A stretch of 64,000 nucleotides of DNA from Microscillaceae bacterium. GTDB lineage: Bacteria; Bacteroidota; Bacteroidia; Cytophagales; Microscillaceae. Of this stretch, positions 4,820 through 35,739 are shown in pieces. The translations under genes and the position numbers were made by a program. The stretch lies in contig JAABSX010000001.1 in NCBI GenBank assembly GCA_011390205.1, forward strand, positions 62,001-126,000, written 5' to 3'. Positions within the stretch are counted from its first letter, which is position 1. Each line of letters starts with the position of its first letter. The notes beneath the pieces are model-generated. The model worked only from the letters and a program-made list of their open reading frames with translations. It was not told where the DNA came from and made no database searches.

Positions 4820-7342
4820 CTAATGTACAATCTGGCTGGGCATCTCTATCACAAAATCAGGGGCGATGATTTCTAGTTTGATGTCTTTGGTATGGGCTTT
4901 TTTCCAGTTACTTACTTTGTTGCTTTCGTTTTCTACCTTGACCTGCCAACTGGTATCTGTGTCAATACTTATTTTTTTACCGTTGTCTAGGGTGATGTAT
5001 CCTGTGGCATTTACACTTGCGGCGTCATCTTCTACAAGCCCATATCGGAGCAGCCCTTGGTTATAGTTGCGCACTCTAAACACAATCTCGTTATCACCCT
5101 CTATCAAGTAATTTTTGATATTGATAAATCTTATTTTCTCTGTCTCGAGCATATTATTTTTGGCATTTCTGACAAAGGACTTATCTACAAACTGCCCATT
5201 GATGTAGAGTTCTGCATAAGTATTGGTGAGGTATTGCAAGATGGCTCTATTAGGAGGAGCATTAAGGTAGAGCAGTGTTCTGAAAGTAGCCGTATTTGCA
5301 CATTGTTTTTCTGTGGGGCAATCACTAATCCATTTGCTTTTGAGCAGTGGGTTAGTAACTTGGCTAAACAATACGCCTTGTTTTAAATCGAAATAATAAG
5401 TAATAAGTGCATCAAATTTGTTCAAGATAAGCTCAAGGTTGTCTCCAGGGGCATAGTACTGTTCCCAGACTTTTCGGTATTCTTCTTTGAGGCTTGCCAA
5501 GTCTATGGTGATATTTTCTATTCTTCCGAGCATTTCAAATATATTTTCCACTTTGTCATTTCGGAGGTCTTGTACTTCCTCTAGCATAGAGATTTTATCG
5601 GCAAAGGTGCTGATGAAATGCTGATGAAGCCTATAAAGTGCTACCTGTTTTTGTACCAATGACATTTCGGAGGAGGTGCTGTCTTGTTCTACAAAGACAA
5701 ACGCCAGTGAATCCAAGAGAGGTTGTGTTTGGCTGAGTGTATGCAACAGAATATTTCTCCTTTCAGCAAGCGAGCTACTATCTGAGATAAAGGTGGGCTG
5801 TGCCTCTAGTGCAGGATGTCGCCAGAATTCATTCCAATAAATCGTATTTTGTGCTTCTGCAAAGTGCTGGTGCAACTGCCTGATTTCTTGTATTTCTTCA
5901 GGGTAAGTATCCTGAAAGTGATTTTTAGATGCCGCTTCCGTCTGTAGGGTATCACTGCTCCAGGCATAGTGCCCTGTCCAGGTATAGGTAGGATATAAAA
6001 ATTCTTTGAAGGCCTGAAAGTCCATTTCTCCTTTGTTATATGTAATGAAGCCTTGTGCTTGTGATTGCTTGGAGAAGCTACTCAACTGTTTGATTTTCAG
6101 AAAACTTTTTGACTCTTGCGGAAAGATACTTTTGGTATTGTAGGCTGGTGCACTGATGAGGTAGGGGATAGTGTCTTTGGCAGGCTCTATTGTTTTCTGA
6201 GAGGGATTTTTGTTATCAGAGGGTTGATACATTACGATGCCATCCTTTTGCAGGGCATCTATATTCTCTGGAAACTCTAGGAGGATATCTCCATAAATGA
6301 TGGTTTGCTTGTTGTATTTTTTACAGATTTGAGTTACTTTTTGGTAGTGGTAGCGGTGTAGTGCTGCGAGCCCTCCGAGTTCTTTTACCAGTGCCTCACT
6401 TTCTCCGAAGCCTGCGTCGTGGCTGTGTGCCATGCCTATGTGTATGTATTGGCTTCGGAATACTTCGGCTATTTCAGAGATGACCAAATCAAGATACACA
6501 TATGTATAGGGGCAAGCAATACAGAGCGTACTTGCTCCAGGGAATTCTGTAATAGACTGGAATTGGTTGATATTGAGGATGTTTTCTTGGTTTCCAAGGG
6601 TCTCAAATATAGGGATAATGTCTATGTATTTTTTTTCTGCATATGCTACCAGTTCCTTTATTTGAGATTTTTGGAGGGCGTTTCTGTCTTTGCCTATGGC
6701 AGTAAAGTTATCAAAGCTAAAGACATCTTCTATGTATAAGAAGTAGGTATTGAGTTTATACCAGGCAAGCTGGTCTATGATTTTTTTAAAATTGGCAATA
6801 TTTGGGATTTGGCTTTGGCTGATGTCTTCTGAGATACCTCTCATTTTGAGGTCTGGCCAATCTGCGATGTATTGCTGATCGATGCTTTTTGTTTTGGATT
6901 GGGAAATAATCTGTGCGAGGGTAATTGCACCATAAAATACACCTCTATCCGTAAAGCCTTCTATGACGATTTTGTCAGGGAAAATGGCAAGGATGTACGC
7001 TTCTCTGATTTGACTTTCTGGAATTTTAAATCTGTTGATTCTGTCATTGATTTCACTTCCTGTAAGTATTTTGAGTAAGATCTGTGATTTGGTGGCTTCA
7101 AACTCTAAGGATGTCTTGATGCCAAACTGTTTGATGAGTGCCTCATTAATGATAGAGGCTGCGGGCAGTGTAGAATTATTGGGGTCATTCAAGAATGAGA
7201 TATTCATGAGTCGGGGCATCTCATAGCTTCCATTTTTAGGAATAATAGTTTTAGGAGTAGGTATAATGTCTGCTTTGACAGTATCTGTGATGACGGTCAT
7301 AAACCATAGGAGGCATACGATGAAGCAAACAAGTTTTTGCAT
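4820..7342 (-). CDS. Secreted GH20 beta-hexosaminidase-like protein lacking the catalytic Asp-Glu pair
   Basis: An 840-residue protein with a signal peptide (about residues 1-24). It has an N-terminal GH20 zincin-like subdomain (about 26-150), then a barrel opened by DWPDLKMRGISED near residues 161-173, the usual entry to GH20 TIM barrels. The catalytic segment normally reads HIGxDE; here residues 301-306 are H-I-G-M-A-H, followed by GFGES as in intact relatives, so Asp-Glu is replaced by Ala305-His306. The rest of the barrel and a helical linker remain, and the C-terminal 200 residues look like a beta-sandwich sugar-binding domain (FRVRNYNQGLLRYGLVEDD). Known GH20 enzymes remove N-acetylhexosamine by substrate-assisted catalysis that needs this pair, so this is probably a binding protein or a pseudoenzyme. 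The frame is intact and long, so it is not simply decayed. Confidence 0.8.
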   Translation of the reverse strand: MQKLVCFIVCLLWFMTVITDTVKADIIPTPKTIIPKNGSYEMPRLMNISFLNDPNNSTLPAASIINEALIKQFGIKTSLEFEATKSQILLKILTGSEINDRINRFKIPESQIREAYILAIFPDKIVIEGFTDRGVFYGAITLAQIISQSKTKSIDQQYIADWPDLKMRGISEDISQSQIPNIANFKKIIDQLAWYKLNTYFLYIEDVFSFDNFTAIGKDRNALQKSQIKELVAYAEKKYIDIIPIFETLGNQENILNINQFQSITEFPGASTLCIACPYTYVYLDLVISEIAEVFRSQYIHIGMAHSHDAGFGESEALVKELGGLAALHRYHYQKVTQICKKYNKQTIIYGDILLEFPENIDALQKDGIVMYQPSDNKNPSQKTIEPAKDTIPYLISAPAYNTKSIFPQESKSFLKIKQLSSFSKQSQAQGFITYNKGEMDFQAFKEFLYPTYTWTGHYAWSSDTLQTEAASKNHFQDTYPEEIQEIRQLHQHFAEAQNTIYWNEFWRHPALEAQPTFISDSSSLAERRNILLHTLSQTQPLLDSLAFVFVEQDSTSSEMSLVQKQVALYRLHQHFISTFADKISMLEEVQDLRNDKVENIFEMLGRIENITIDLASLKEEYRKVWEQYYAPGDNLELILNKFDALITYYFDLKQGVLFSQVTNPLLKSKWISDCPTEKQCANTATFRTLLYLNAPPNRAILQYLTNTYAELYINGQFVDKSFVRNAKNNMLETEKIRFINIKNYLIEGDNEIVFRVRNYNQGLLRYGLVEDDAASVNATGYITLDNGKKISIDTDTSWQVKVENESNKVSNWKKAHTKDIKLEIIAPDFVIEMPSQIVH

Positions 7343-32896: not shown

Positions 32897-33820
32897 ATGA
32901 CAGACAAAATAGCAAAACCGTTTTTGAAGTGGGCAGGTGGTAAAACCCAACTCATTAACGACATTAAAAAAGCTTTGCCTAAAGACATTTTGGGAAATAA
33001 ATTCACATATATTGAACCATTTGTTGGAAGTGGTGCCATTTTATTTTGGATGTTGAACAATTTTCCAAAACTTGAAAAAGCGGTAATCAACGACATCAAT
33101 GAAGACTTAATAAATACCTATAAAACTATTGCATCAAGGCCGACAGAATTAATTTCAATTCTTGAAATATTTCAAAATGAATTTCATGCTTTAGAAGGTA
33201 GCGAGGACAACAAAAAGCTCTATTACTACCAAAAAAGAGAACTCTATAACATAAGAAAAGAAGAACAAAGTGGACAAGCTGCTTTGTTTATTTTTCTCAA
33301 TCGCACTTGCTTTAATGGTCTATATCGAGTTAATAATAAAAACTTATATAATGTGCCAATGGGCGGTTATAAACGTCCGACAATTTGCGACAAGGAAAAT
33401 ATTTTGGCAGTAAGTAACGCTTTGCAAAAAGTAGAAATTTTGTGCGGAGATTTTGAGCAAACCCTTAATTACATAAGTGAAAATTCTTTGTTCTATTTCG
33501 ATCCACCATACAAACCATTGAGCGAAACATCAAGTTTCAATTCATATGCTAAAGGCGATTTTAACGACAGCGAACAAATACGCTTGAAAGATTTTTGTTC
33601 AAAATTGGACACACTAAATCATACTTGGATTTTGAGTAATTCAGATGTGAAAGGAAAAAATGTAAACGACAACTTTTTTGACGAATTATATTCTGATTTT
33701 ACTATTCAAAGAGTTGATGCAAGACGAAGCATTAACGCTAATCCAGAGAAAAGAGGTTCATTGAAAGAACTACTAATTACAAACCAGACGAACAATAAAG
33801 AATATGTCAGAGCAATTTAA
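32897..33820 (+). CDS. dpnM: DpnM/Dam-type DNA adenine-N6 methyltransferase (GATC)
   Basis: A 307-residue class alpha amino-methyltransferase. The Dam/DpnM hallmarks are in order: KPFLKWAGGKTQL (residues 8-20), the SAM-binding motif IEPFVGSGAI (39-48), LNRTCFNGLYRVN, and the catalytic DPPY at about 202-205. It would methylate adenine in GATC in double-stranded DNA and so protect the chromosome from the partner nuclease. The nuclease gene overlaps it by 17 bases. It is more A/T-rich than nearby housekeeping genes, which suggests acquisition by transfer. The GATC specificity is inferred from family and from the partner nuclease. Confidence 0.92.
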   Translation: MTDKIAKPFLKWAGGKTQLINDIKKALPKDILGNKFTYIEPFVGSGAILFWMLNNFPKLEKAVINDINEDLINTYKTIASRPTELISILEIFQNEFHALEGSEDNKKLYYYQKRELYNIRKEEQSGQAALFIFLNRTCFNGLYRVNNKNLYNVPMGGYKRPTICDKENILAVSNALQKVEILCGDFEQTLNYISENSLFYFDPPYKPLSETSSFNSYAKGDFNDSEQIRLKDFCSKLDTLNHTWILSNSDVKGKNVNDNFFDELYSDFTIQRVDARRSINANPEKRGSLKELLITNQTNNKEYVRAI

Positions 33821-34643
33821 AAACTTCCTTTCGCAATTTTCAGAAACAAACGCCACGCTTGACTATTTCACCGATTTTAAGAAAATAAAAAGCAACGTAA
33901 ATAAAATTTCAATCAAACTCAATCAATTAAATTATCTGATTGGGAAAGAGAACTTGAAAGAAGCAATTAGTGAACTTTACCAAGAAAATTCAAATGTTTT
34001 TGAGGTTTTGGATATTTTGATTGCTATCCGTAAAAACAAAAAGGCAAAAACATTCAACAATAATGGAAAAGTTGTTTTACTTGACACTTATTTTGCTTCG
34101 CCTGAAGGCATTTTAGAATACATAGACGAAACTGGTTTGGCAGAACTTTTCAGAAATAAAGATGTAACAAATCTTGTTGATTACGTTTTTGGAATTGAAG
34201 TTGGTTTAGACACAAACGCAAGAAAAAATAGAGGTGGCGACAATATGTCGAAAGCCGTTTCACTTATTTTTGACAAAGCTGGATTTTTTTACAAAAAAGA
34301 AGTAAATAATACAATCTTTCCTGAAATCATAAGTTTAGGTGCAGATGTAAAACGCTTTGATTTTGTAATCAAAACTAAAAAGAAAACCTATTTAATTGAA
34401 ACCAATTATTACAATAGTGGTGGTTCAAAGTTAAACGAAACAGCAAGGTCTTATTCTGATGTAGCACCTAAAATCAATCAATATGACGATTACGAATTTG
34501 TTTGGATAACTGATGGACAAGGTTGGTTTACTGCAAAAAACAAATTGGAAGAAGCGTATAATATAATACCGAGTTTGTATAATTTGACAACGCTTGAAGA
34601 TTTTATCAAGAAAATTCAAGAAGAAGAAGTTTTAAATTTTTAA
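33804..34643 (+). CDS. DpnII/MboI-type restriction endonuclease (GATC)
   Basis: A 279-residue type II nuclease. The DpnII family signature is clear: KNRGGDNMSKAVSLIFDKAG (about residues 140-160), then the PD-(D/E)xK-like core RFDFVIKTKKKTYLIETNYY, with Asp in FDF and Glu in IETN, and SDVAPKINQYDDYEFVWITDGQ. These enzymes cut unmethylated GATC. Length is usual for the family (about 280-290). It overlaps the methylase by 17 bases, which couples nuclease translation to prior methylase synthesis. The next small gene begins 11 bases downstream. Confidence 0.92.
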   Translation: MSEQFKNFLSQFSETNATLDYFTDFKKIKSNVNKISIKLNQLNYLIGKENLKEAISELYQENSNVFEVLDILIAIRKNKKAKTFNNNGKVVLLDTYFASPEGILEYIDETGLAELFRNKDVTNLVDYVFGIEVGLDTNARKNRGGDNMSKAVSLIFDKAGFFYKKEVNNTIFPEIISLGADVKRFDFVIKTKKKTYLIETNYYNSGGSKLNETARSYSDVAPKINQYDDYEFVWITDGQGWFTAKNKLEEAYNIIPSLYNLTTLEDFIKKIQEEEVLNF

Positions 34644-34654
34644 AAATCAAAAAT

Positions 34655-34915
34655 ATGGCTTGTAATAAGAACCACGATAATACAGATAGCATAGTTAGAG
34701 ATTTACCAATTGGACAAGAAGGTGTTGGGAGACATAAATGTGCGTCTTGTGCATACGAAATTGGCTACCAACACGGTTTGCAAAAAGCCGAAAACATTAA
34801 TTTAGCAAATGTTTTAGATGGATTAGAAGAAAGTCAAAAAGGCGATAGAAGACATAGAAGTCCACACGCTGCGTATTCTTTAGGTTATTATAACGGTGTT
34901 GTAGATAGTTACTAA
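34655..34915 (+). CDS. Small protein of two copies of one motif, within the DpnII operon
   Basis: An 86-residue soluble protein not belonging to any family I know. Residues 14-41 and 54-81 align without gaps at an offset of exactly 40, sharing L17/57, Q21/61, G23/63, R26/66, H27/67, A33/73, Y34/74, G37/77, Y38/78 and G41/81, so the motif L-x3-Q-x-G-x2-R-H-x5-A-Y-x2-G-Y-x2-G occurs twice. Copy one also has Cys29 and Cys32 (KCASCAY), with two more metal-ligand candidates, His7 and His27. It starts 11 bases after the nuclease, and its stop overlaps the ATG of the second methylase by a single A, so it is truly part of the operon. A role as controller, inhibitor or assembly factor is possible but unproven. 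Confidence 0.72.
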   Translation: MACNKNHDNTDSIVRDLPIGQEGVGRHKCASCAYEIGYQHGLQKAENINLANVLDGLEESQKGDRRHRSPHAAYSLGYYNGVVDSY

Positions 34916-35739
34916 TGATTAGTCCATTTTTCAAATCTAACGACAAAGACTTTTATCTTCTTCACGGAGATACAATGGATATTTTGCCTCAATTTGACCA
35001 CAAATTTGACATGATCTTTGCAGATCCACCATATTTTTTGTCAAATAACGGACTTTCAATTCAAAGTGGAAAAATTGTAAGCGTAAATAAAGGAAAATGG
35101 GACAAATCCGGAGGATTTGAATTTATAAACGACTTCAACCGCAAATGGCTTTCATTAGTTCGTGACAAAATGAAGGATGATGCGACAATTTGGATTAGTG
35201 GTACAATGCACAACATTTTTTCAGTTGGACAAATTCTGAATGAATTAGGATTTAAAATTCTAAACGTAATAACTTGGGAAAAATCAAATCCACCACCTAA
35301 TTTTTCTTGTCGCTATTTTACATATTCGACAGAGCAAATAATTTGGGCAAGAAAAAGCGAAAAAGTTCCGCATTACTTCAATTATGAATTAATGAAACAA
35401 CTTAATGGCGACAAACAGATGAAAGACGTTTGGAAATTGCCAGCAATTGCACCTTGGGAAAAATCTTGTGGAAAACATCCAACACAAAAACCTTTGTCGG
35501 TTTTGACAAGACTTATTTTGGCCTCGACAAAGCCAAATGCTTGGATTTTAGATCCATTTGCAGGCAGTTCAACAACGGGAATTGCAGCTAATTTGGCAAA
35601 CAGATGGTTTTTAGGAATTGACCAAGAAGAAGAATTTTTGATAATAAGCAAAAACAGAAAACTTGAAATTGAAAATCCAAAAACAGCAGCTACTTACAGA
35701 CAAAAAATTGGTGGTTTCAAGGGTGTGATCTCAGGTTGA
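34915..35739 (+). CDS. dpnA: DpnA-like second DNA adenine methyltransferase, C-terminus rewritten by an IS remnant
   Basis: A 274-residue class beta N6-adenine methyltransferase: the catalytic motif ADPPY at residues 36-40 near the start and the SAM motif ILDPFAGSSTTGIAA near 210-224, followed by RWFLGIDQEEEF. The order (catalytic motif before SAM motif) is that of DpnA, which in the pneumococcal DpnII system methylates GATC in single-stranded DNA taken up during transformation. The last codons, ending VISG then stop, lie in the left end of an inserted IS remnant: the stop TGA (35737-35739) is inside its inverted repeat. Read across the right flank, the original end would have been KGMISI. 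The enzyme core is not harmed. Confidence 0.88.
   Translation: MISPFFKSNDKDFYLLHGDTMDILPQFDHKFDMIFADPPYFLSNNGLSIQSGKIVSVNKGKWDKSGGFEFINDFNRKWLSLVRDKMKDDATIWISGTMHNIFSVGQILNELGFKILNVITWEKSNPPPNFSCRYFTYSTEQIIWARKSEKVPHYFNYELMKQLNGDKQMKDVWKLPAIAPWEKSCGKHPTQKPLSVLTRLILASTKPNAWILDPFAGSSTTGIAANLANRWFLGIDQEEEFLIISKNRKLEIENPKTAATYRQKIGGFKGVISG
35723..35731. repeat. Left target-site duplication of the IS remnant
   Basis: GTGTGATCT, matched by GTATGATCT at 35990-35998 (8 of 9), immediately flanks the element. This is the 8-10 base size expected for ISAs1-family insertions. Confidence 0.7.

Follow-up and report, generated by a model that had tools for sequence, protein, structure and literature searches.

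A duplicated mini-protein with a predicted zinc site in a DpnII operon, and the association of its family with GATC methylases

GATC methylation is the best-known DNA mark of bacteria and, to our knowledge, few proteins that read it have been described: SeqA, MutH and DpnI-type domains. In the DpnII (MboI-type) restriction-modification system the gene order is dpnM, nuclease, dpnA. Homologues of all three lie in this same order in the DNA studied here, with a fourth gene inserted between the nuclease gene and dpnA. The fourth gene encodes an 86-residue protein, and we use FAM as the name for this protein and its relatives.

BrxR (PMC9122589) is a WYL-domain DNA-binding protein, larger than FAM. 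CapW is likewise a larger WYL-domain DNA-binding protein. Like these two small regulators, FAM is a small accessory gene beside many unrelated defence systems. We saw no sequence relation between them, and BrxR and CapW are not known to have a GATC link. DpnI and HhiV4I are winged-helix readers of methylated GATC (PMC11037411). FAM would likewise read adenine methylation near GATC while fused or linked to nucleases, but as a 40-residue zinc/helix repeat in place of a winged helix.

An optional fourth gene in a DpnII operon

The window, that is, the whole stretch of DNA that was analysed (positions 1-64000), contains the following operon.

32897-33820, + strand: DpnM, Dam-family GATC adenine methyltransferase (PF02086, 4e-65; TIGR00571, 297 bits; closest solved-structure relative 2dpm, M.DpnII 1, 2e-54)
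33804-34643, + strand: DpnII restriction endonuclease, which cuts unmethylated GATC (PF04556, 2e-96)
34626-34913, + strand: optional cassette, missing in the homologous operon L199 (blastn blocks stop at 34625 and restart at 34914)
34655-34915, + strand: 86-residue duplicated, predicted-zinc mini-protein of the PHROG 3941 family, FAM (PHROG match; dN/dS far below 1)
34915-35739, + strand: DpnA, second GATC methyltransferase, overlapping the 86-residue ORF by one base (PF01555, 1e-57)

With a Dam-family methylase, a PF04556 nuclease and a DpnA methylase all found, the host operon is a DpnII system. The FAM ORF is intact, running from an ATG to a TAA between the nuclease gene and dpnA as the original prediction had it, and the proposed one-base overlap was found as well, the ORF ending at position 34915, where the ATG of dpnA begins. 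The gene had also been called an extra part of the operon, and we agree that it is extra and optional: the sister operon L199 lacks 34626-34913, its nuclease TAA being followed directly by the dpnA ATG, and among five more full-length DpnII systems, found in a sample of 295 Bacteroidia genomes, only one carries FAM. Presence in the window and in one of those five, with absence from L199, does not bear FAM out as a standard DpnII component. Across 96 genomes of the window's order, FAM occurs in the window's own genome alone. GATC is strongly depleted in the window, with 25 sites where trinucleotide frequencies predict 233, and CCGG (9 against 72) and CGCG (3 against 32) are depleted too. That 5 of the 25 GATC sites fall within the 2.8-kb restriction operon suggests that this operon is a recent arrival.

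The FAM gene is under strong purifying selection, with a dN of 0.01 and a dS of 0.41 between the window and L016. In Parapedobacter (L020), the DpnII operon has been reduced to FAM and a few bases of dpnA; FAM there has kept 86% identity and a dN much lower than its dS, and a Dam-family gene lies elsewhere in the genome. Because this copy outlives its operon under purifying selection, FAM is useful apart from the nuclease.

Repeats, predicted zinc site and fold

The following features were located within the ORF, with conservation counted in an alignment of 89 diverse FAM relatives (identity down to 32%).

34661-34675, + strand: first half of the predicted zinc site, C3-x3-H7 (C3 in 89/89, H7 in 88/89)
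34703-34777, + strand: repeat 1, residues 17-41, L...Q.G..RH.....AY..GY..G (offset-40 self-match; Q21, R26, H27 and A33 invariant)
34739-34750, + strand: second half of the predicted zinc site, C29-x2-C32 (C29 in 88/89, C32 in 87/89)
34823-34897, + strand: repeat 2, residues 57-81, without cysteines (Q61 and R66 invariant; H67 in 88/89)

Two gap-free copies of one motif at an offset of 40 had been described, and self-comparison recovered them, the best 30-residue self-match having 10/30 identities, a score reached by 2 of 2000 shuffles. Seven residues are invariant in the 89 relatives (C3, Q21, R26, H27, A33, Q61 and R66) and five nearly so (H7, C29, C32, S60 and H67). Of the residue pairs at equivalent positions of the two repeats, Q21/Q61 and R26/R66 never vary, and H27/H67, A33/A73 and G37/G77 never or hardly ever do. 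The C-x2-C pair noted originally in the first copy is C29/C32; C3 and H7, which had been missed, complete the set. These four ligands have a spacing suitable for zinc and are kept at 98-100%, and C3-x3-H7...C29-x2-C32 is likely a zinc site, a predicted metal site of the kind that had been suggested. The second repeat has lost its cysteines. On a 266-kb phage contig, a 93-residue protein (L210:3998-4279) has one zinc-repeat copy (C-x3-H...QAGVSRHKCAICAYESGY), and because it carries a single copy the zinc half-unit also exists alone.

The protein had been said to belong to no described family. This stands for Pfam, NCBIfam and PADLOC, where the window protein has no family match, but not for PHROG 3941 (function unknown), which it matches at E 3e-21 over residues 1-82 and profile positions 3-83 of 86, nearly the whole profile. 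Beyond that phage library, FAM is also found in GATC restriction operons of cellular genomes and as a domain of fusion proteins. Helix-turn-helix domains mark one type of restriction-control (C) protein, and no helix-turn-helix family in Pfam or NCBIfam matched the window protein at E 10, and we found no description of the FAM family in the literature.

An AlphaFold2 model of the 86-residue protein (pLDDT 91) has two units, each made of a short helix, a loop and a long helix. Foldseek gave no significant match for the model and no DNA-binding fold was recognised; the best weak structural matches were chains of the rRNA-binding ribosome modulation factor (RMF), at ranks 1, 2 and 7 (Z 3.9, 3.8 and 2.7). 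RMF (PF04957) is also the sole Pfam family hit by many members, weakly matching 24 of 89 (best E 0.0012), and has in common with FAM two helices with A-x3-G-[YW]-x2-G motifs. FAM could on these grounds be an RMF-like protein that binds RNA or ribosomes and tunes translation, with a secondary link to GATC methylases, and the conserved, strongly folded leader RNA of prophage copies (below) would suit such a role. We consider this improbable, as the Z scores stay below 4, the profile comparison aligned just 15 columns at 10.7% probability, the zinc ligands and the invariant Q and R-H of Q-x4-R-H lack a counterpart in the RMF alignment, and the methylase link would be left unexplained. The genomic company of the two also differs, and the window protein did not match PF04957 even at E 10. 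RMF is possibly a distant fold relative of FAM, as far as the model can indicate, without family membership.

A leader of about 200 nt is conserved upstream of lambdoid-prophage FAM genes (L076:9783-9958, L081:9786-9961, L113:9781-9956 and about 20 other loci). It forms three to four hairpins, with folding z of -2.7 to -6.9 in 14 sequences, and has a promoter-like TTGA..TATAAT with GATC at the -35 side; its last hairpin appears to cover the ribosome-binding site. Rfam holds no family for this leader, and RNAalifold predicted no pairs on the leader alignment because the alignment is gappy. A first pass upstream of FAM found 79 GATC sites against 34 expected between -300 and -150. We ruled this enrichment out as general evidence on FAM promoters, its source being this one shared leader: the other unlinked FAM loci had no upstream enrichment (42 seen, 51 expected), and the GATC pair at -75/-45 is in part explained by an RNA stem, of which it forms both arms. 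There was likewise no GATC cluster upstream of DpnM operons (5 seen, 12 expected), and we set aside autoregulation of these operons via promoter GATC sites as unsupported.

Constant methylases and changing nucleases

Conjugative plasmids, lambdoid and P2-like prophages and cellular genomes all carry FAM relatives. Homologues mainly away from restriction systems had been named at the outset as a finding that would refute the original idea, and many do sit in prophages and plasmids without nearby restriction genes; for most of these mobile copies a nearby methylase is absent too. A genome scan with degenerate patterns from 13 sequences gave 91 confirmed loci, of which 80 were kept. Of the 80, 35 fall in Dam-bearing gammaproteobacterial groups (Enterobacterales, Vibrio, Aeromonas- and Alteromonas-like), and a Dam-family gene was present in every such genome searched (the search left out 8 of the 80 loci, all from these groups); these 35 carry little weight because Dam presence is the expected state there. 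The other 45 come from Bacteroidota, Spirochaetota, Bacillota, single members of other phyla, Neisseria, Methylophaga, Pseudoxanthomonas and MAGs, and 37 of them adjoin GATC-type restriction genes, with a DpnM or DpnA relative at the locus in 34 and just a nuclease remnant in three. Two of these three, L023 and L026, start where the contig end falls inside the partner nuclease gene, and the third, L049, is a FAM pseudogene beside a restriction-gene remnant. In the remaining eight the methylase is unlinked: five genomes (L020, L033, L036, L055 and L094) have a Dam-family enzyme, and three Pseudoxanthomonas genomes have a DpnA relative (53-55% identical) and no Dam-family enzyme. Three loci (L023, L049 and L082) are incomplete or at contig ends, yet have GATC-system genes or remnants. 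Among the 80, apart from the 8 Dam-group loci outside the search, no fully assessable locus was found without a Dam- or DpnA-type enzyme.

Neighbour clustering placed DpnM (34 loci), DpnA (24), the DpnII nuclease (20) and a 425-residue DUF6996-6997-7226 protein (11) as the commonest neighbours of FAM outside prophage synteny. All 10 linked methylases scanned lie above the NCBIfam cut-off of TIGR00571 by a wide margin and are thus of the Dam family. As a base rate, 29 of 96 genomes in the window's order have a Dam-family gene over the cut-off, and a rough gene-density estimate for that order puts chance adjacency to such a gene within 6 kb at about 0.1%. Among 149 Xanthomonadaceae genomes, the two with a strong FAM are two of just three with a DpnA relative; as close kin, they count as one or two events. 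With methylase specificity taken from homology, it is well supported that the work of FAM is tied to GATC adenine methylation.

The arrangement of the genes varies widely. FAM lies between the nuclease gene and dpnA in the window and in L016-L019, L021 and L022, after dpnA in L027, L028, L030 and L047, and after a DUF6997 nuclease in L014, L041, L044-L046, L048 and L050. It precedes dam in L035 and L053, where a PDDEXK_11 nuclease follows, and in L064, where the nuclease would lie past the end of the contig, and is on the opposite strand in L058, L061 and L065. DpnII and DUF6997 partners alternate within well-supported (starred) clades of the FAM tree; linkage on this tree, built on few columns and with many of its forks left open, needs nine changes, at least two of them forced by well-supported branches. 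We therefore ruled FAM out as a DpnII-specific partner, since the nuclease varies and the methylase type stays. The original idea that FAM controls the DpnII nuclease proved too narrow, for FAM also accompanies DUF6996-6997-7226 and PDDEXK_11 putative nucleases. As the partner nuclease changes among DpnII, DUF6997 and PDDEXK_11 and the methylase keeps to the Dam family, FAM follows the methylase, not the nuclease, and what is constant across FAM is a GATC-type methylase, either at the locus or elsewhere in the host genome.

Small zinc proteins often act as adaptors between proteins, and a FAM that tracks Dam-family enzymes whatever the nuclease might bind the Dam/DpnM methylase or its mRNA and adjust the methylation level, acting on host Dam when encoded by mobile elements. 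This is unlikely in our view: the three Pseudoxanthomonas genomes without a Dam-family enzyme have the DpnA type, an unrelated class, and one docking surface would not fit both; a fusion to an HNH nuclease (below) also suits a DNA reader better. Varied defence genes adjoin gammaproteobacterial copies, with Septu (L042), HsdR (L037), Hp1-Hp2 (L040), PDC-M18 (L052), PDC-S31 (L032) and a reverse transcriptase (L101) as examples, not a counted enrichment, from the Dam-bearing groups. Such neighbours would be expected if FAM were a passenger of defence islands that owed its GATC association to co-transfer. That explanation is disfavoured, being already at odds with the distribution, and seems very unlikely given recruitment in several positions with several nucleases, the linkage changes forced on the tree, unlinked co-occurrence in Xanthomonadaceae and five other genomes, and the strong purifying selection on FAM.

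Two further genes were seen in these operons. The DUF6996-DUF6997-DUF7226 protein lies directly 3' of a Dam-family methylase in at least 10 loci (for example L044:8703-9980 and L025:8709-9998) and is a candidate GATC restriction nuclease. In Bacteroidales, DpnII operons contain an additional 178-residue gene between the nuclease gene and dpnA (L027:8481-9017, L028:8481-9017, L047:7869-8405), with weak PDDEXK likeness (E 0.003).

Fusions and a possible reader of GATC

FAM also occurs as part of larger proteins. It forms the C-terminus of a DndB/DGQHR protein (PF14072) in four DpnII operons; operons with this fusion have one more gene, of about 165 residues (L077:8320-8826, L091:2431-2961, L095:8302-8790), which has weak matches alone, to membrane-protein families. 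At four other loci, FAM is joined at its C-terminal side to a domain that has a conserved RN-x3-H motif; L024 and L025 carry this fusion intact, L023 and L026 as fragments. In L036 the domain has a gene of its own, which starts 3 bp downstream of FAM. From its R-x4-H motif alone we read the domain as HEPN-like and a putative RNase; it matched nothing in Pfam or among solved structures, and the confidence of its structure model (pLDDT 45) is too low for use. HEPN RNases are second-line partners of restriction systems (PMC3710099). In one Xanthomonadaceae genome, a single gene (L218:5211-5894) encodes an HNH nuclease (PF01844, 1e-6) preceded by two FAM repeats, both complete and with their cysteines. 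It lies 275 bp from a convergent dam (6170-7045), with genes that read as McrBC-like on its other side. This fusion was seen once, and no further example was found in 369 genomes of the class, phage contigs or plasmids: matches in plasmids to its FAM part are FAM proteins only, and apparent HNH matches in plasmids were ruled out as fusions, the common part being the nuclease only. The arrangement suggests that FAM takes the place of the target-recognition part in a nuclease beside dam, and is the single most telling case.

Our preferred explanation, held tentatively and a little short of even confidence, is that FAM is a zinc-stabilised duplicated module that reads GATC, or the methylation state of this site, on behalf of different defence effectors. 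Most likely FAM would bind DNA directly, and its two Q-x4-R-H repeats would recognise GATC or its methylation state; the invariant Q, R and H of each repeat may contact one half of the GATC palindrome, a contact that methylation would affect. Different lineages would attach this reader to different outputs, namely an HNH nuclease, a DndB-like protein, a putative HEPN RNase or a neighbouring defence operon, and in the window's operon FAM would read GATC as an accessory part, tuning the DpnII system or backing it up. Of the original interpretation this keeps the extra, optional operon part, the predicted metal site and a plausible DNA binding, and gives up specificity for DpnII or its nuclease.

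The same DNA recognition could instead serve to shield GATC, FAM being an antidote to the operon's own nuclease in restriction systems and to foreign GATC-directed nucleases in prophages and plasmids, in line with its presence in restriction operons and mobile elements alike. Elements in Dam-bearing hosts, however, have DNA that is already methylated, most DpnII operons do without FAM, and fusions to nuclease-like effectors do not fit a pure shield, which leaves this role a rather slim prospect. A wider form of the GATC-reader explanation holds that FAM is a portable reader of GATC methylation, a 40-residue zinc repeat used in pairs that couples varied effectors to Dam-type methylation as a self mark in bacteria and prophages; in this full scope it is possible, though on balance we doubt it.

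FAM accompanies the mark in unrelated phyla and in one genome is fused to a nuclease beside dam. If the GATC-reader explanation is true, FAM would be a compact new tool for GATC recognition and would suggest that defence outside classical restriction also uses Dam methylation as a self mark. On a more modest reading, these results provide a lead to the function of an uncharacterised protein family of phages and plasmids.
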